Origin: Flavobacterium zhairuonense
GTDB lineage: Bacteria > Bacteroidota > Bacteroidia > Flavobacteriales > Flavobacteriaceae
Direction of reading: 5' to 3'
Length of the DNA stretch: 64,000 nucleotides
NCBI RefSeq assembly: GCF_004352915.1
Contig: NZ_SJSY01000075.1
Location: 496,001-560,000 of the forward strand
Part shown: positions 33,267 to 40,852 of the stretch, one piece after another
Layout: the number at the start of each line of letters is the position of its first letter
Position numbering within the stretch: the first letter of the stretch is position 1
The notes under the pieces: model-generated
Told to the model about the DNA's origin: nothing
Seen by the model: only the letters and a program-made list of their open reading frames with translations
The model's database searches: none
Position numbers and translations under genes: made by a program

Positions 33267-36107
33267 TTAATGCGCTTCTAGCCAATCTTTACCCATTCCT
33301 AATTCAACTTCTAGTGGAACCGACATTTTAAATGCATTTTCCATTTCGTGTTTAATCATTGGCTGGATTTTTTCGAGTTCGTCATTGTGAACATCGAAAA
33401 CAAGCTCATCATGAACCTGAAGCAACATTTTAGATTTCCAGTTTTCGTCCTGTAATTTTTTATGAATGTTGATCATTGCAATTTTAATCACATCGGCGGC
33501 ACTTCCTTGAATTGGCGCGTTAACTGCATTTCGTTCAGCGGCACTTCTAACAACTGCATTTGCCGAATTGATATCTTTTAAATAACGGCGTCGGCCTGAA
33601 ATGGTTTGCACGTATCCTTTTTCTCTCGCAAATTCAATTTGTTCCTGAATAAATGATCTCAATCTAGGATAAGTTTTGTAGTAAGCATCAATCAAAGCGG
33701 CACTTTCGCTTCGAGATAATGAAGTCTGACTGCTTAATCCAAAAGCAGAAACACCATATATAATTCCGAAGTTTACTGTTTTGGCGTTGCTTCTTTGCTC
33801 ACGGGTCACATCTTCTAAAGCAACATCAAAAACTTTTGCGGCTGTTGATCTGTGAATATCTTCTCCATTTTGGAACGCTTTTATCATGTTTTCTTCACCA
33901 CTTAAAGCGGCGATGATTCGTAATTCAATTTGAGAATAATCGGCAGAGATTAAAGTGTAGTTTTCATCGCGAGCGACAAAAGCTTTGCGAATCTGGCGTC
34001 CTCTTTCGGTACGAATCGGAATATTTTGCAAGTTCGGATTGTTAGAGCTCAAACGTCCCGTTGCAGCAACTGTCTGCATATAATCGGTATGAACGCGTTG
34101 TGTCTTTTTGTCCACTTGCTCAGGTAAAGCCAAAATATAAGTGCTTTGTAGTTTTACCATTTGGCGCCAGTCCAGAATATCTTTTACAATTGGATTTTCG
34201 TTAGCCAAATAAGTCAAGACTTCTTCTCCAGTTGCATATTGACCGGTTTTGGTTTTCTTTTGTTTTGCGCCGCCGATCTTCATTTTTTCAAATAGAATAT
34301 CTCCTAATTGTTTTGGTGAAGCCAAATTGAATTTTTCGCCGGCAGTTTCGTATATTTTTTGTTCCAAAGATTTGATTTCGACATCCATTTCAGAAGACAT
34401 TCCTTTTAAGAAATCAACATCTAAACGAATTCCTTCAGTTTCCATAGCGGCCAAAACGCTCACTAATGGAATTTCGATTTCATCAAATAACTTCTTGGTT
34501 TCGGTTTTGTCTAGTTCTGTCGTGAAGATTTCCTTTAATTGTAAAGTAATGTCTGCATCTTCGGCGGCGTATTCTTTAATATCTTCCAAAGGAACATCGC
34601 GCATCGAAAGCTGATTTTTTCCTTTTTTGCCAATCAAATCTTCAATTGGTTTAGGAGAATATTTCAAATAGGTTTCGGCCAAAACATCCATATTATGACG
34701 CATATCAGGATTGATCAGATAATGTGCAATCATCGTATCGAAAAGTTTTCCTTTTACTGTGACGCCATAATTAGCAAGGATTTTTAGATCGTATTTTAAG
34801 TTTTGCCCAATTTTTTCAATGTTTTCATTTTCAAAAAACGGAACAAATTTGTTGATCAAAGTTTTAGCTTCTTCTTGGCTTTCTGGAAACGGAACATAAA
34901 ATGCTTTTCCTTTTTCATATGAAAAAGACATTCCGACTAATTCAGCGTGCAAAGCATCAATTCCAGTAGTTTCAGTGTCAAAACAAACTGAAGTTTGATT
35001 CTGTAAATTCTGCAATAACAATTTCACACCCAAATCTCCTTGAACACTCTGATAGGAGTGTGGTGTGTCTGATAGAGTGCTGTAGAATGAATTTTTTGGA
35101 GTTTCTGAATCTTCATCTGCGGAAGCGCTTCCAAACAGATCAAATTGATCTTCGTTTTTTGGTTGTGGCTTTTTGTACAATTTAGCATCAGAAACTTCGG
35201 GAGCTGCGGTTTGTGTTCCATCTGTTTTGAACAAATTGTCAAATTGCTCTGCCATTCTTCTGAATTCTAATTCTTGAAAAATAGCTTCGGTTTTTTCAAT
35301 ATCCGGACGCGATAATTCATAATCATTTTCGTCAAAAGTAACAGGGCAATCTAATAAAATAGTTGCCAATGTTTTAGAAAGCAAACCTTTTTCTTTGTTT
35401 GCTTCAATATTCTCTTTCATTTTGCCTTTCAGCTTGTCAGTATTTGCCAAAAGGTTTTCCATTGTGCCAAATTCTTTCAAAAGTTTTTTGGCTGTAACTT
35501 CGCCAACTCCTGGAAGTCCAGGAATATTATCGGCGGCGTCGCCCATCATTCCAAGAAAGTCAATTACTTGTTCTGGTCTTTCGATTTCAAATTTTTCTAA
35601 AACTTCAGGAACGCCCCAAATTTCGATTCCGTTACCCATTCGGGCAGGTTTGTACATGAAGATGTTTTCAGAAACTAATTGTGCAAAATCTTTATCGGGA
35701 GTTACCATAAAAACTTTGTAATTCTGTTTTTCGGCTTGCTTAGCAATAGTTCCAATTAAGTCATCGGCTTCAAAACCTTCAACTTCAATAATAGGAATAT
35801 GCATTGCTTTTAAAAGTTCGCATATATAAGGAACAGCAATTTTGATTGCTTCGGGCGTTACATCACGGTTTGCTTTATATTCAGGAAATAAATCATTTCG
35901 AAGCGTACTTCCGCCTTTATCAAAAGCGACAGCCAAATGATCTGGTTTTTCTCTTTTAATAACATCCAAAAGTGAGTTCATGAAGCCCATAATTGCAGAT
36001 GTATCCATTCCTTTTGAGTTGATTCTCGGGTTTTTTATAAAAGCATAATAACCACGAAAAATTAATGCATAAGCATCTAGAAGAAAAAGGCGTTTTTGAG
36101 TTGACAT
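33267..36107 (-). CDS. polA: DNA polymerase I
   Basis: 946-residue polymerase with all three domains. The 5'-3' exonuclease occupies about residues 1-290 (LFLLDAYALIFRGYYAF, FEADDLIGTIA, VTPDKDFAQLV, LPGVGEVTAKKLLKEFG). The 3'-5' exonuclease begins near 370 with FDTETTGIDALHAELVGMSFS, retaining catalytic DxE, so proofreading is likely. The polymerase domain contains SADYSQIELRIIAALSGE (motif A), RSNAKTVNFGIIYGVSAFGLS (motif B), and LQVHDELVFDV (motif C). Length normal. Confidence 0.98.
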   Translation of the reverse strand: MSTQKRLFLLDAYALIFRGYYAFIKNPRINSKGMDTSAIMGFMNSLLDVIKREKPDHLAVAFDKGGSTLRNDLFPEYKANRDVTPEAIKIAVPYICELLKAMHIPIIEVEGFEADDLIGTIAKQAEKQNYKVFMVTPDKDFAQLVSENIFMYKPARMGNGIEIWGVPEVLEKFEIERPEQVIDFLGMMGDAADNIPGLPGVGEVTAKKLLKEFGTMENLLANTDKLKGKMKENIEANKEKGLLSKTLATILLDCPVTFDENDYELSRPDIEKTEAIFQELEFRRMAEQFDNLFKTDGTQTAAPEVSDAKLYKKPQPKNEDQFDLFGSASADEDSETPKNSFYSTLSDTPHSYQSVQGDLGVKLLLQNLQNQTSVCFDTETTGIDALHAELVGMSFSYEKGKAFYVPFPESQEEAKTLINKFVPFFENENIEKIGQNLKYDLKILANYGVTVKGKLFDTMIAHYLINPDMRHNMDVLAETYLKYSPKPIEDLIGKKGKNQLSMRDVPLEDIKEYAAEDADITLQLKEIFTTELDKTETKKLFDEIEIPLVSVLAAMETEGIRLDVDFLKGMSSEMDVEIKSLEQKIYETAGEKFNLASPKQLGDILFEKMKIGGAKQKKTKTGQYATGEEVLTYLANENPIVKDILDWRQMVKLQSTYILALPEQVDKKTQRVHTDYMQTVAATGRLSSNNPNLQNIPIRTERGRQIRKAFVARDENYTLISADYSQIELRIIAALSGEENMIKAFQNGEDIHRSTAAKVFDVALEDVTREQRSNAKTVNFGIIYGVSAFGLSSQTSLSRSESAALIDAYYKTYPRLRSFIQEQIEFAREKGYVQTISGRRRYLKDINSANAVVRSAAERNAVNAPIQGSAADVIKIAMINIHKKLQDENWKSKMLLQVHDELVFDVHNDELEKIQPMIKHEMENAFKMSVPLEVELGMGKDWLEAH

Positions 36108-36303: not shown

Positions 36304-36356
36304 TTCAAAAAACAGCAAAGCGTTAATGTCTCGTTAAATAATTCAGTTTGTAAGAA

Positions 36357-36378
36357 TTCTTCATTTTTTCTTCATTTT
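36357..36378 (+). promoter_or_regulatory. Tandem 11-bp direct repeat, putative OmpR-family operator 1
   Basis: TTCTTCATTTT occurs twice head-to-tail without mismatch. It ends 7 bp before the -7 element and so occupies the -35 region. The same word pair occurs at 39161-39182 before the third small-protein gene. Confidence 0.75.
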
Positions 36379-36385
36379 GCGAAAG

Positions 36386-36393
36386 TAATTTTG
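36386..36393 (+). promoter_or_regulatory. -7 element of the first small-protein operon
   Basis: TAATTTTG, matching TAnnTTTG, 42 nt upstream of the ATG at 36436. No TTTG -33 element; the direct repeats are there instead. Confidence 0.65.
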
Positions 36394-36435
36394 AAGTGTA
36401 AAATAAAAGGTATTAATTTTTAAATCTTAGAAATC

Positions 36436-36633
36436 ATGAGAAATTTATTGATGGTATTAGTGGCAGTTTTAGGTGCAAGTGCAATGGTTCATGCTTTTCC
36501 TGCGAAAAACCAACAAACAGCACCTGTGAAAGAGGTTACGGCAACAAAACACCCAAAAAACAAATCTGATAAAAAAACAAAATCAGAAAAAAGTGAAGCT
36601 CCAAAAGCTGAAACAGCAAAAGTAAAAAAGTAA
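36436..36633 (+). CDS. Small secreted Lys/Ala-rich protein, copy 1
   Basis: 65 residues. A signal peptide MRNLLMVLVAVLGASAMVHA ends in a signal-peptidase site, leaving a mature peptide of about 45 residues rich in Lys, Ala, Thr and Pro and with no cysteine. Related to the genes at 36684 and 39243 in signal peptide and tail composition (SEAPKAETAKVKK). The composition and size resemble enterobacterial Asr acid-shock protein, though no homology is claimed. Its upstream sequence CTTAGAAATC-ATGAGAAATTTATT is shared with the next gene, a tandem duplication. Confidence 0.8.
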   Translation: MRNLLMVLVAVLGASAMVHAFPAKNQQTAPVKEVTATKHPKNKSDKKTKSEKSEAPKAETAKVKK

Positions 36634-36683
36634 AATAAAAAATTTTAAAGAATAAAATCAATTAATTAAAAAACTTAGAAATC

Positions 36684-36920
36684 ATGAGAAATTTATTTAT
36701 GGCGATCGCCGCAGTTTTAGGAACAAGTGCAATGGTAACAGCAGCTCCAGCTCCAGTTAAGAAAGCTCCTGGAAAAGAAGTAAAAGCAACTCCTCAGCAA
36801 GATACAAAAGCAACACCTGCAAAAGAGGAAAAAGCAGCTAAACATTCTAAACATCATAATAAAAAAGCAAAATCAGCAAAAACTGAAGCTCCAAAAACAG
36901 AAGCTTCAACTATGAAATAA
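36684..36920 (+). CDS. Small secreted Lys/Ala-rich protein, copy 2
   Basis: 78 residues with signal peptide MRNLFMAIAAVLGTSAMVTA followed by APAPVKKAPGKEVKATP and a His/Lys stretch KHSKHHNKKAKSAKTEAPKTEA. The 50-bp spacer from copy 1 has no promoter, and the shared start region shows duplication. A terminator follows at 36999. The mature peptide is expected in the periplasm, or beyond. Confidence 0.8.
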   Translation: MRNLFMAIAAVLGTSAMVTAAPAPVKKAPGKEVKATPQQDTKATPAKEEKAAKHSKHHNKKAKSAKTEAPKTEASTMK

Positions 36921-36998
36921 CAGCATTTGTTTTTGATTTGTTTTCAGATTCATGGTTAGAAAACAAAACAGGGATAATGGTTATGGAGAATGCGGTTG

Positions 36999-37031
36999 AA
37001 AAAGCTGACGAAGAAATTTGTCGGCTTTTTT
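36999..37031 (+). terminator. Terminator of small-protein genes 1-2
   Basis: AAAAAGCTGACGAA and TTTGTCGGCTTTTT form a stem (two G-U pairs) around GAAA, then TT. The sequence resembles the terminator at 39502-39533 after copy 3. Confidence 0.75.
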
Positions 37032-37109
37032 AATCGTTAATTTTTTAATAATAGTCGTCGGGATTTTTTAAAATTGCTTAAATTTAATTGCGCTTAATAG
37101 CTACAGATT

Positions 37110-37784
37110 ATGAATATTTTAATTGTTGAAGACAATAAGGAACTTGCGGTCGAAGTTTATGATTTTTTGTGCAATGCAGGTTATGTATGTAAAATTACAC
37201 ATACTTGTGATGAAGCTCTTGAAGAAGTAGCTGGGAATGATTTTGATGCGATGCTTCTTGATTTAGGATTGCCGGATGGCGATGGTTTTGAGGTTTTGAA
37301 AGCGGTAAGAAAAACACAGTCAAAAATGGCTGTTATTGTTTTGACGGCTCGTGGTGAATTAGATGACAGAATAAATGGTCTGCATTTAGGCGCTGATGAT
37401 TATTTGACAAAACCTTTTGCATTGACTGAACTTAGTGCGAGATTGTTTGCCGTGATTCGCAGAATTCATGGTTTTACTTTGAACAATTTAAGCATTCACG
37501 GATTTTTGCTGCAGCTTCAAGATTATAAAGTCAGTTATAATGAAGTGCCGATTAGTTTAACCAAAAAAGAGTTTGATATTTTTCAATATTTAGTGCTGAA
37601 CAAAAACCGAGTTATTACAAGACTTCAATTGACAGAGCATATTTGGGGCGATATTCTAGAAGTCAATTCCGATTCTAATTTTATTGATGTTCATGTACGA
37701 AATCTTCGAAAAAAATTAGATAAACATACCACAATAGATTGGTTTGAAACGGTTAGAAATGTTGGTTATCGAATCAATGAATAA
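37110..37784 (+). CDS. OmpR-family response regulator
   Basis: 224 residues. The receiver domain has acidic pocket VEDNKEL, phosphoacceptor Asp51 in MLLDLGLPDGDGFEV, VLTARGELDDRINGLHLGADDYLTKPF with the conserved Thr and Lys. The C-terminal winged helix (about 128-222) has LTKKEFDIFQYLVLNKNRVITRLQLTEHIWGD and SNFIDVHVRNLRKKLD. This fold normally binds tandem direct repeats with 11-bp period, as found at 36357 and 39161. It is 12 bp upstream of its kinase gene. Confidence 0.95.
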   Translation: MNILIVEDNKELAVEVYDFLCNAGYVCKITHTCDEALEEVAGNDFDAMLLDLGLPDGDGFEVLKAVRKTQSKMAVIVLTARGELDDRINGLHLGADDYLTKPFALTELSARLFAVIRRIHGFTLNNLSIHGFLLQLQDYKVSYNEVPISLTKKEFDIFQYLVLNKNRVITRLQLTEHIWGDILEVNSDSNFIDVHVRNLRKKLDKHTTIDWFETVRNVGYRINE

Positions 37785-37796
37785 AAAGACAAATTT

Positions 37797-39134
37797 GTGA
37801 AGATAAAACACCAGTTGGCTATTTTTAATGCACTGACAAGATTGTTGGTGATTTTGATTTTATGGCTGATGTTGCCCATTTTGGTCGAAAATGTGGTTTA
37901 CAGGCATATCAATAACGGCTTGGTTGAAAAAAAGAAAAAATTCATTGATCATTTGAATAAAAAAGAAATAGATGATTTTATTCAGAATGCCGATGATTCA
38001 ACCGAAACCTATTCTCAATTTTCGACACTACACAGCGAATTTTTGGTTCTTTCTAAAATTCCTATAAAAGATAATGATAAAAAGACTTTTTTCAATAATG
38101 AATACCGAATTATTGAAGGAGAAGAAAATGAATATCGAATTCTGCAATATCATTTTACTTATGAAAATCAAGGTTATCAGCTGGAAATTGGTAGTAGCCT
38201 CAGCGAAGTAAATGACTTGACGTTCATTATTCGATTCTTTATTATTATTGTGTTGGTGGTTATTCTGCTCGTTACTTTTTTGGCAGATACCGTTTATATT
38301 GAATATCTTTTAAAACCTTTTTATAAAATCATTGATACAAAAATAAAGCGTGTCAACGAGCCAGAAGCTTTTGATCATACTCCGATAAAAGCAAATTCTA
38401 GAGATTTTAGAGAACTTGATTTGGTGTTAAACCAAATGATGGATCGAATTACAGAGCTTTTTAAGAAAGAAAAACAATTCATCTCAAACGTTTCTCACGA
38501 ATTGCTCACTCCAATTGCATTGCTGAAAAATAAATTCGAAAATTTATTGCAAAATGAATCTTTAGATGATAATGCGGTTGATAAAATAGTTGGATCAATG
38601 AAGACATTGGACATGCTGAAAAAAATAATCAATAATTTGTTGCTGATTTCCCGAATTGAAAACAATCAATATGAAGCAAATGAAGAGATTAATTTTTATG
38701 AAATTGTCAATGACTTACAGGAAGATTTAGAAGATCGAATTGAAGATCGAGAAATTGAGTTTGTAAATAAAATGGAGCACGATTATGTTTTTACAGGAAA
38801 CAAAACGCTGATTCATATTTTGATTTATAATTTGGTTACCAATGCCATAAAATACAATCGCCCAAACGGAAAAATTATTGCCAAAGATGGTTTTGAAAAA
38901 GGGCGTTATTTTATTTCCATAACAGATACAGGTCTTGGAATGAGTGAGGCGCATCTTGAAAAAATATTTAATCGATTTGCTAGAATCAGTTCAGATCAGG
39001 ACGGGCAGGGTTTAGGGCTCGCAATTGCCGAAAGTATTGCCTCTTTTCACCATATTGAAATCAAAGTAGAGTCAGAAATTAATGTTGGTACAATATTCAC
39101 TTTGATCGTTCCTGAGCCTCTAAAACATAATTAA
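37797..39134 (+). CDS. Sensor histidine kinase partnered with the response regulator
   Basis: 445 residues, starting with GTG at 37797. Two membrane segments (about 10-30 and 143-163) flank a periplasmic sensor of about 110 residues rich in charged residues (EKKKKFIDHLNKKEIDDFIQNADDS). His234 lies in FISNVSHELLTPIALLKN. The ATPase domain has NLVTNAIKYNRPNGKI, ITDTGLGMSEAHLEKIFNRFARI and GQGLGLAIAESIA. A HAMP-like linker around 170-220 is suggested by its length and charge. Signal unknown. Confidence 0.93.
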   Translation: MKIKHQLAIFNALTRLLVILILWLMLPILVENVVYRHINNGLVEKKKKFIDHLNKKEIDDFIQNADDSTETYSQFSTLHSEFLVLSKIPIKDNDKKTFFNNEYRIIEGEENEYRILQYHFTYENQGYQLEIGSSLSEVNDLTFIIRFFIIIVLVVILLVTFLADTVYIEYLLKPFYKIIDTKIKRVNEPEAFDHTPIKANSRDFRELDLVLNQMMDRITELFKKEKQFISNVSHELLTPIALLKNKFENLLQNESLDDNAVDKIVGSMKTLDMLKKIINNLLLISRIENNQYEANEEINFYEIVNDLQEDLEDRIEDREIEFVNKMEHDYVFTGNKTLIHILIYNLVTNAIKYNRPNGKIIAKDGFEKGRYFISITDTGLGMSEAHLEKIFNRFARISSDQDGQGLGLAIAESIASFHHIEIKVESEINVGTIFTLIVPEPLKHN

Positions 39135-39160
39135 AAGTTAATTTTTTTGAAATGGTTTAA

Positions 39161-39182
39161 TCTTCATTTTGTCTTCATTTAG
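39161..39182 (+). promoter_or_regulatory. Tandem 11-bp direct repeat, putative OmpR-family operator 2
   Basis: TCTTCATTTTG followed at once by TCTTCATTTAG, an 11-bp period. It ends 6 bp before the -7 element at 39189, the same geometry as operator 1. Confidence 0.75.
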
Positions 39183-39188
39183 TGATTC

Positions 39189-39196
39189 TATCTTTG
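39189..39196 (+). promoter_or_regulatory. -7 element of the third small-protein gene
   Basis: TATCTTTG, matching TAnnTTTG, 46 nt upstream of the ATG at 39243. Confidence 0.65.
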
Positions 39197-39242
39197 AGGT
39201 ATAATAATAGAAGTAATAAACAAATCAGTAAAATTTTTAGTT

Positions 39243-39434
39243 ATGAAAAAAATAGTAATGGTTGCAGTAGCTGTTCTAGGAACAGTAGCAATGGTAAATG
39301 CTCAAACAACTCCAGCTCAAGCTAAAGCAGCTCCAGCAAAAGAAGCTAAAGCTCCAGCAAAAGAGAAAAAAGCAGACAAAAAAGCTAAAAAAGCAGAGGC
39401 AACTAAGCCAGAAGCGGCAAAAACTCAAAAATAA
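39243..39434 (+). CDS. Small secreted Lys/Ala-rich protein, copy 3
   Basis: 63 residues. The signal peptide is MKKIVMVAVAVLGTVAMVNA; the mature peptide QTTPAQAKAAPAKEAKAPAK and on is made almost only of Ala, Lys, Pro, Glu, Thr and Gln. A paralogue of the two genes upstream of the two-component system, with the same operator-promoter geometry and a related terminator. A structural or buffering role in the envelope is possible; no function is known. Confidence 0.8.
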   Translation: MKKIVMVAVAVLGTVAMVNAQTTPAQAKAAPAKEAKAPAKEKKADKKAKKAEATKPEAAKTQK

Positions 39435-39501
39435 AAAAATAAGTTTGCCTTGGCAGCAGACTTTGTGTGGATTATAAAAGGTTTTAAAAAATTTGGTAGA
39501 G

Positions 39502-39533
39502 AAAAAGCTGGTGGAGAAATCTGCCAGCTTTTT
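39502..39533 (+). terminator. Terminator of small-protein gene 3
   Basis: AAAAAGCTGG and CCAGCTTTTT form a perfect stem around TGGAGAAATCTG. Confidence 0.85.
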
Positions 39534-39616: not shown

Positions 39617-40852
39617 ATGATCATTCGTTTTATAATTCTTTGTGCCCTTTTTCTATTTATTGAATTTTATTCCTATCAGGCCTTTCGTACTTTAATTAAA
39701 ACGAGATGGGTTTTAGTAAGTTATCAACTCATAAGTTTTCTTCTTTTAGCCTTTATCATTTATTCTTTTACTCAGTTTGACCGTTCAGTAGGGCAGACCA
39801 AGCAAACCATGTTTACAATGGGGTTAATGCTTTTGGTTTATGTTCCAAAAATCGTTCTTACATTGGTAATGTTTGGTGAAGACATTTTTAGAATTGGTGC
39901 AAGCCTTTTGAATTATTTCATGTATAATGCGCCAAGAAAAGAAATAATGCCAGACAGAAGAAAGTTCATTAGTCAAATTGCTTTAGGTTTGGCGGCTGTG
40001 CCCTTTTTGTCTTTGATTTACGGAATTTTTGAAGGAAAATATAATTTCAAAGTAATCAAGCAGACTGTCTTTTTTCCAGATTTGCCAGATGCTTTTGATG
40101 GTTTTAAAATTACACAAATTTCAGATGTTCATAGCGGCAGTTTTGATAATCCTGAAAAGATAAATTATGCCATCGATTTGATCAATGATCAAGAAGCCGA
40201 TATGATTTTGTTTACTGGCGATATCGTAAATACGCATGCAAAAGAAATGCATCCGTGGCTGGAGACTTTTAGCCGAATCAAAGATTATAAATATGGAAAA
40301 TTTTCAGTTTTAGGAAATCATGATTATGGTGAATATGTGACTTGGCCATCAGAAAAAGAAAAGGACGAAAACTTTCAAGAAATCAAAAAACTTTATGGTC
40401 AAATTGGTTTTAAACTAATGCTGAACGAACATACTTATATTCAAAAAGGCAATGATAAAATCGCTTTAATCGGAGTAGAGAACTGGGGAGTCAATTTCAA
40501 AAAGGCTGGAGATTTAAATAAAGCCTCTGAAAATGTTGCTAAAGAAGATTTTAAAGTCTTGATGAGCCACGATCCAAGTCATTGGGACGCCGAAATTAAA
40601 GATCACCCTAAAAACTTTCATTTAACATTGGCTGGGCATACGCACGGAATGCAGTTTGGAATTGAGATTCCGGGCTATTTTAAATGGAGTTTGGCGCAGT
40701 ATATTTATAAACAATGGGCTGGTTTATACGAAACTGCCGGAAGATACGTTTATGTTAACCGCGGATTTGGTTTTCACGCCTATCCAGGCCGAGTTGGCAT
40801 TATGCCAGAAATAACAGTGATTGAACTAAAAAAGGGCAAGAATGTGGCTTAA
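39617..40852 (+). CDS. Membrane-anchored metallophosphoesterase
   Basis: 411 residues. About four N-terminal membrane segments (within residues 1-145) precede a calcineurin-like phosphoesterase domain. Metal ligands are seen in QISDVHSGSFD, FTGDIVN, LGNHDYGEY, LMSHDPSHWD and LAGHTHGMQFG. This group resembles YkuE/YaeI-type phosphodiesterases that can cleave UDP-diacylglucosamine or lipid phosphates, but the substrate is not evident here. It follows the small-protein cassette after a terminator, so it is transcribed separately. Confidence 0.93.
   Translation: MIIRFIILCALFLFIEFYSYQAFRTLIKTRWVLVSYQLISFLLLAFIIYSFTQFDRSVGQTKQTMFTMGLMLLVYVPKIVLTLVMFGEDIFRIGASLLNYFMYNAPRKEIMPDRRKFISQIALGLAAVPFLSLIYGIFEGKYNFKVIKQTVFFPDLPDAFDGFKITQISDVHSGSFDNPEKINYAIDLINDQEADMILFTGDIVNTHAKEMHPWLETFSRIKDYKYGKFSVLGNHDYGEYVTWPSEKEKDENFQEIKKLYGQIGFKLMLNEHTYIQKGNDKIALIGVENWGVNFKKAGDLNKASENVAKEDFKVLMSHDPSHWDAEIKDHPKNFHLTLAGHTHGMQFGIEIPGYFKWSLAQYIYKQWAGLYETAGRYVYVNRGFGFHAYPGRVGIMPEITVIELKKGKNVA

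Follow-up and report, generated by a model that had tools for sequence, protein, structure and literature searches.

The box of the response regulator PmrA consists of CTTAAT-type half-sites, which stand head to tail and 5 bp apart (PMC3973317). Asr has been described as an intrinsically disordered chaperone (PMC10746267), and the regulator RstA binds to the asr promoter (PMC11135836). In the Bacteroidota, TAnnTTTG is the -7 element of the primary sigma factor, as confirmed in F. johnsoniae, for whose promoters a -33 motif was not found (PMC7366714). Here we report on a stretch of 64,000 nucleotides from Flavobacterium zhairuonense (referred to as the window), which is part of a 5.25 Mb genome placed in Flavobacterium by its relatives and contains a cassette of five plus-strand genes. 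In order, these encode two small proteins, a response regulator, a histidine kinase and a third small protein. The small genes stand behind promoters that carry the tandem operator CTTCAT-N5-CTTCAT, and we propose that the cassette is probably a dedicated two-component switch with an envelope-protection output, in which a dimer of the adjacent regulator would act on the flanking small-gene promoters. We recognized no account of this cassette in the literature searched, which does not in itself prove that none is in print. Coevolution mutants of F. johnsoniae include one in an OmpR family response regulator (PMC10197871), whose locus tag we could not match to the cassette regulator.

Geometry and conservation of the tandem operator

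The original prediction for this DNA had described tandem repeats at 36357-36378 and 39161-39182, and these are present exactly as quoted; the open reading frames of 65, 78 and 63 residues were likewise confirmed, as was the relatedness of the two terminators, both of which are strong hairpins with a GAAA loop. One common register fits both repeats, namely CTTCAT-N5-CTTCAT followed after exactly 10 bp by TAnnTTTG. TAnnTTTG at this fixed spacing would be the -7 element, as in promoters of the Bacteroidota primary sigma factor, and by position the operator covers the place of a -33 element, which would suit an activator compensating for the missing -33 contact. Under a first-order Markov model, the operator with TAnnTTTG is expected about 0.001 times in a genome of 5.25 Mb. 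It was observed twice in the whole genome, both times flanking the two-component genes, with two occurrences on the plus strand of the window and zero on the minus strand. The looser TAnnTTT adds a third site in the genome, before a PepSY-like gene on contig C48 (expectation 0.005). A chance origin of the repeats was rejected on the grounds of the Markov expectation and of the reversed-pattern controls given below.

To follow the promoters by gene position, the small genes were picked by position and composition first and repeats were looked for only afterwards. From 143 loci, 115 distinct cassettes were kept, those not having both regulator and kinase and those with a repeated kinase stretch being dropped; 80 of them had been found by kinase similarity and 35 by a motif or regulator hit, so that the counts are partly motif-selected. 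The small-protein filter returned no upstream gene in 22 of the 115 cassettes and no downstream gene in 6 (L166, L206, L215, L069, L089 and L111), and these were excluded from the promoter counts. In L069, L089 and L111 the operator is present behind the kinase gene, and the small gene there was therefore probably missed by the filter; one upstream pick of 50 aa (L195) looks like a false positive. The exact operator was found in 106/109 downstream promoters, the remaining three differing by one substitution, and in all 106 TAnnTTTG follows exactly 10 bp past it. Upstream, the operator was exact in 87/93 promoters, with TAnnTTTG at 10 bp in 80 of these and near-variants in 7. The non-exact upstream cases comprise one substitution each in L174 and L089, two substitutions in L105, a site cut by the contig end (L151) and two loci in which the scored gene is seemingly not the first (L154 and L187). 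When the 80 kinase-found cassettes are taken alone, the operator is exact in 75/77 downstream and 59/63 upstream promoters, with sequence and spacing again exact downstream; the corresponding figures for the cassettes fetched by motif or regulator are 31/32 and 28/30.

The commonest tandem hexamers at a period of 11 in the promoter regions of the cassettes are CTTCAT and its overlapping shifts, followed by AGTTAA (36/93 upstream) and AATAAT (23/109 downstream). At six other periods CTTCAT was unremarkable, the sole notable repeat being TTATAT at period 9 (31/93 upstream). With at most one mismatch, 67 of the 80 kinase-found loci contain two operators, 9 contain one, 2 contain three and 2 contain none; on the other strand of these loci, no operator was found with one mismatch allowed.

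The genus-level sample comprised 299 Flavobacterium-level genomes and the family-level sample another set of 299 genomes, with thresholds of E<=1e-80 for regulator orthologues and, in the family-level sample, E<=1e-60 for the kinase. A longer version of the promoter pattern, with at most one mismatch, was present in 79 of the 299 genus-level genomes, usually as two copies separated by about 2 to 3.3 kb, and its reversed control, with one mismatch allowed, in 0 of 299. The shorter exact pattern CTTCAT-N5-CTTCAT-N10-TAnnTTT occurred in 81/299, and its reversed control gave 1 match in the 299 genus-level genomes; a reversed-pattern control in the 299 family-level genomes likewise gave 1. A regulator orthologue was present in 81/299 genus-level genomes, and the operator-bearing and regulator-bearing sets are identical: the same 81 genomes have both and the other 218 have neither (Fisher P ~3e-75, a value that ignores relatedness and linkage). 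Kinase orthologues with 66-100% identity were found in 14 of the 61 genomes searched, the host included. In the family-level sample, operator and kinase were each found in 1/299 genomes, in both cases the host itself. Pedobacter sp. BMA (L215), the one distant genus named among the best 80 kinase-alignment loci, has a kinase that is 43% and a regulator that is 59% identical; small genes and operators were not found beside this pair.

The site of the cassette is mostly fixed, with polA upstream in 104/114 and a metallophosphoesterase-like gene downstream in 106/114. The empty site was inspected in 21 genomes chosen from the 218 that have no regulator. In 13 of them polA and the metallophosphoesterase-like gene are neighbours, separated by 110 to 1174 bp in which the small-protein family is absent, one unrelated small frame in L253 passing the loose filter; in the other 8, polA was not seen within the 1.5 kb examined. 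In one genome (G234) the regulator and kinase genes are found on contig C19, where they immediately follow a frame resembling by eye a polysaccharide deacetylase, and two small genes, each with its operator, remain at the polA/metallophosphoesterase site on contig C33; on contig C10, another operator-bearing frame with a small-gene-like part adjoins a transposase-like frame. The retention of the operators after the departure of the pair favours an action in trans.

A promoter architecture of 35 bp predicts regulation in 81 genomes, which for Bacteroidota is an unusually sharp assignment, made from sequence, of a regulator to an operator. Flavobacterium includes laboratory strains that are genetically tractable.

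The two-component pair and the exported-looking polycations

The regulator belongs to the OmpR/PhoB family, with a receiver domain (PF00072, 88.9 against a cut-off of 30.2) and a winged helix (PF00486, Trans_reg_C, 78.9 against 26.2) above the curated cut-offs. Its nearest curated model is PmrA (NCBIfam NF007928), which it matches with 179.3 bits, below the equivalog cut-off of 330, and its recognition-helix stretch NSDSNFIDVHVRNLRKKLD hardly varies from cassette to cassette. The kinase contains HisKA and HATPase_c domains, and its best curated model is PorY (NCBIfam NF052314; 258 bits, below the subfamily cut-off of 350). By eye, its periplasmic domain spans about residues 34-141, and this sensor domain is net negative in 28 of 31 sequences. 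The structure model of the sensor domain is of middling confidence (pLDDT 77). In VIA-align, the top row is an integrative WalK-YycH model (Z 9.5, rmsd 5.1, 160 aligned), and weak matches were obtained with KinD (4jgo_A; Z 6.8, rmsd 4.4, 130 aligned), WalK (4ywz_B; Z 6.6, rmsd 3.7, 107 aligned) and CusS (5ku5_A; Z 6.5, rmsd 3.1, 102 aligned), whereas Foldseek returned none at E<=0.001 with the sensor model, its top-ranked hit being DcrB (E 0.0044). The tied matches to KinD, WalK and CusS only suggest a Cache-like sensor fold.

The small genes form a family of 240 members encoding 236 distinct proteins of 50-96 aa. Base differences fall mainly on third codon positions (2635 against 1297 and 1135 for the upstream genes, 2000 against 868 and 612 for the downstream genes, in pairs that are not independent), and this excess indicates that the small open reading frames are real genes. 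The proteins look disordered and exported, export having been judged by eye from the N terminus and the composition. Their N termini are signal-peptide-like, V-x-A occupying residues 18-20 in 210/240, and a K-E-[VAI]-[KT] motif follows the signal peptide in 125/128 and 104/112. After residue 20, the net charge ranges from +4 to +14 across the family and K, A, E, P and T make up on average 74% of the upstream and 83% of the downstream proteins; aromatic residues are nearly absent from the mature parts and no cysteine was found in the 240 proteins.

When 35 members were compared with Pfam and NCBIfam, no match resembling true kinship was obtained. The models that came up most often, one for conotoxins (12 members, best E 0.00091) and one for type VII secretion (13 members, best E 0.0078), are of the kind to be expected from composition and signal peptide, and every match of the three window proteins was below the cut-off. 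It had been suggested in the original prediction that the proteins resemble Asr, and this holds for size, predicted export and their basic, low-complexity composition; it does not extend to a family match, as the 63-aa protein reaches 13 bits with the Asr model (NCBIfam NF033636) against a cut-off of 50, the 65- and 78-aa proteins are unmatched by it at E<=1, and it is listed at E<=1 for 5 of the 35 members with a best E of 0.0039. Membership of the Asr family was thus rejected, all scores being below the equivalog cut-off or weak in E value. This leaves a large uncharacterized family of exported-looking polycations that bears Asr-like protective hallmarks with no detectable kinship, and which would then have met envelope stress independently of Asr.

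Layout of the locus and further elements

Small gene 2, separated from gene 1 by 50 bp, lacks a separate operator, which leaves two operator-bearing promoters for the three small genes; genes 1 and 2 probably share one operon. The features of the locus are collected in Table 1.

Table 1. Features of the cassette and its flanks in the window (gene names of the flanks assigned by eye)
Feature	Position	Strand	Remarks
polA-like gene	33267-36107	minus	5' flank of cassette
Upstream element GTTAA-N6-GTTAA (11-bp tandem)	36322..36337	+	Precedes first small-gene promoter
Tandem operator CTTCAT-N5-CTTCAT of upstream small genes	36359..36375	+	From sequence; exact in 87/93 orthologous promoters
TAATTTTG, -7 type promoter element (TAnnTTTG)	36386..36393	+	10 bp past upstream operator
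Small secreted-looking basic protein 1, 65 aa	36436..36633	+	Net charge +8 after residue 20
Small secreted-looking basic protein 2, 78 aa	36684..36920	+	Net charge +9 after residue 20
Intrinsic terminator-like GAAA-loop hairpin before regulator gene	36998..37031	+	Folding z -7.0
OmpR/PhoB-type response regulator, 224 aa, nearest PmrA	37110..37784	+	Domain and model matches
Membrane histidine kinase, 445 aa, GTG start, nearest PorY-type kinases	37797..39134	+	Domain and model matches
Upstream element AATTAAAAGTTAA before downstream small-gene promoter	39129..39141	+	From sequence; GTTAA at -25 from operator in 93/106 orthologous promoters
Tandem operator CTTCAT-N5-CTTCAT of downstream small gene	39162..39178	+	Exact in 106/109 orthologous promoters
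TATCTTTG, -7 type promoter element	39189..39196	+	10 bp past downstream operator
Small secreted-looking basic protein 3, 63 aa	39243..39434	+	Net charge +8 after residue 20
Intrinsic terminator-like GAAA-loop hairpin	39502..39533	+	Related to 36998-37031 hairpin; folding z -6.2
Metallophosphoesterase-like gene	39617-40852		3' flank of cassette

A second element accompanies the operator. Among upstream promoters with an exact operator, GTTAA stands at -25 to -27, counted from the operator, in 85/87, and 78/87 have another GTTAA at -36 to -38, about 11 bp before the first; in the downstream promoters with an exact operator it is found at -25 in 93/106. In 84/114 cassettes a GTTAA-TTTT motif is also present no more than 110 bp from the regulator start, compared with 73/2280 random stretches. 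The element may be a second site for the regulator, a site for another factor or an UP-like element.

In 75/93 cassettes a distance of 180-199 bp separates the regulator gene from the last upstream small gene, and in 87/93 a terminator-like hairpin lies in between; the regulator gene may be read from a weak promoter of its own or by read-through. In five cassettes (L200, L201, L204, L089 and L093), the region before the regulator gene contains an exact operator followed by a short stretch that is apparently non-coding and has a terminator; two of these five stretches were folded and were better than shuffles (z -5.5 and -3.7), with the terminator hairpin contributing much. Such a stretch is a candidate for a small RNA, a leader or the remnant of a lost small gene. 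Known RNA families were considered for the leaders and terminators, and the gathering score was reached by none. Sub-threshold matches in the window are one to the L20 leader, located behind protein 3, and two to CsrC, which fall on the terminators, and seven weak matches, including CsrC, L20 leader, STnc240 and AaHKsRNA41, fall in L200, L204 and L089.

Operator sites away from the small genes are few: at least eight were seen, the C48 site of the host included, and five of these eight precede a PepSY-like gene. In the host (G000:C48:123857-123890, L123) the exact operator starts 65 bp before the start codon of this gene; in G111, G065 and G225 a PepSY-like secreted gene directly precedes the regulator gene, preceded in G111 and G065 by an exact operator. 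A search of 73 genomes (60 of the 81 with the regulator and 13 others) gave a PepSY-like match in 50. Among 30 orthologues inspected, the operator was exact in 4, had one mismatch in 10 and two or more in 16, one of the one-mismatch sites being in a genome with no regulator (G060). These counts lend weak support to the PepSY-like gene as a general member of the regulon. Scores with PepSY_like (PF11396) were 17.4, 26.9 and 16.6 bits, under the gathering cut-off of 28.3, and in a paper on PepSY-like genes in Bacteroidetes a direct link to the cassette was not found (PMC10434189). In one genome (G094; L070, C57) an MprF-like lysyl-phosphatidylglycerol synthase gene is preceded by the exact operator, with about 67 bp from the start of the operator to the gene. 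Separately, an exact operator with TAnnTTT stands before genes of similar hydrophobic proteins of about 100 aa in two genomes (G175:C5, L135; G284:C1, L136).

Regulatory readings and comparison with described systems

According to the model we favour, the kinase would read an envelope signal through its small periplasmic domain and then phosphorylate the PmrA-like regulator, a dimer of which would bind to CTTCAT-N5-CTTCAT head to tail, just upstream of TAnnTTTG, thereby replacing the -33 element. The bound regulator would activate, rather than repress, the promoters of the small exported polycationic proteins, and these would coat, stabilize or chaperone periplasmic material. For a case made from sequence, the assignment of the regulator to the operator is strong; that it binds there and activates is what we infer, and the same holds for the envelope-stress role of the small proteins and for the signal. 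Of the refuting conditions that the original prediction set for its claim that the regulator drives both promoters, the one open to sequence analysis was not fulfilled: the repeats are conserved upstream of the orthologous small genes, and they accompany the regulator in 81 of 81 genomes, against 0 of 218 with none.

Several points weigh against this model. Block inheritance could account for much of the co-occurrence of operator and regulator, and the Pedobacter regulator has almost the same recognition helix, yet neither operator nor small genes were found there. The exact operator lies within 200 bp of the regulator gene in just 5/115 cassettes, the conserved GTTAA element hints that another factor acts as well, and the fold assignment of the sensor is weak.

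It might be argued that a different regulator, such as one of the PhoB or LytTR type, recognizes the operators and that the adjacent pair is a mere neighbour. The GTTAA element would allow more than one factor to bind, the PepSY-like promoters with operator-like sites adjoin a gene that by eye looks like a LytTR-type regulator gene, and G060 has its one-mismatch operator there with no cassette regulator. We nevertheless consider this unlikely, since the exact operator with TAnnTTT is present in none of the 218 genus-level genomes that have no cassette regulator and the operator with TAnnTTTG in 0 of the 298 other family-level genomes, whereas in listed genomes with no regulator match a first look nonetheless yielded 8 to 58 candidates for such regulators. 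It is hardly credible that the repeats are passive passengers of the cassette that take no part in regulation. Linkage is strong and the cassette sits mostly at one site, but the hexamers and the 10-bp spacing are constant in promoters selected by gene position, in which adjacent spacer positions vary, upstream and downstream promoters have little in common besides the operator and promoter elements, and the operators persist where the kinase/regulator pair has moved away.

A serious contender, if not the favourite, is that the same circuit has another output, namely a PmrAB-kind response to cationic peptides or metals and not an Asr-kind acid or chaperone response. This would agree with PmrA as the nearest regulator model, with the PmrA-like box, with the net negative sensor domain and with the operator before the MprF-like gene, although this last link is confined to a single genome and, by eye, a lipid A modification gene was not seen between the cassette genes in the window. 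That the small proteins are secreted antimicrobial peptides seems very improbable to us: they are small and cationic and have a signal-peptide-like N terminus, but their mature parts, rich in K, A, E, P and T with almost no aromatics and no cysteine, are unlike most membrane-active peptides, and an extra possible immunity gene was not found in the small-gene operons of the window. A more speculative extension of the two-component switch, which we regard as doubtful, is a closed envelope circuit, in which the secreted polycations would be both the near-sole output and, via the K-E-V-K motif, the feedback ligand of the mostly acidic periplasmic domain of the kinase, either binding to it or being titrated off it; the cell would then measure free negative charge in the envelope and make polycation buffer until the signal ends. 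If this were true, acid, cationic peptides, metals and damage to the surface could each give rise to an envelope-charge signal, and the GTTAA repeats and, in some species, the operator-driven short RNA before the regulator gene would be further layers of feedback.

Among described systems, the cassette resembles PmrA/PmrB (BasRS) in its regulator family and in the 11-bp arrangement of head-to-tail half-sites 5 bp apart, CTTCAT differing from CTTAAT by one base of the half-site. Unlike PmrA/PmrB, its regulator scores below the PmrA model cut-off, its main targets would be the flanking small exported proteins, and its promoters carry the Bacteroidota -7 element. With enterobacterial Asr, which is under RstAB, it shares a small exported basic low-complexity protein under an OmpR-type regulator; however, the cassette proteins have no family match and carry a K-E-V-K type motif after the signal peptide, and their genes adjoin that of their regulator, with several paralogues per locus. 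PorY-type kinases, which belong to the type IX secretion regulon, provide the best model for the cassette kinase, but the latter is under the cut-off and its partner is the adjacent OmpR/PhoB-type regulator and not PorX. Pairings of PepSY-like genes with regulators are common elsewhere and recur in three cassettes, whereas most cassettes show only the polycationic genes. The type of regulator and the style of operator are known, whereas the operator sequence and the target family are new, and the regulon is apparently a private one.

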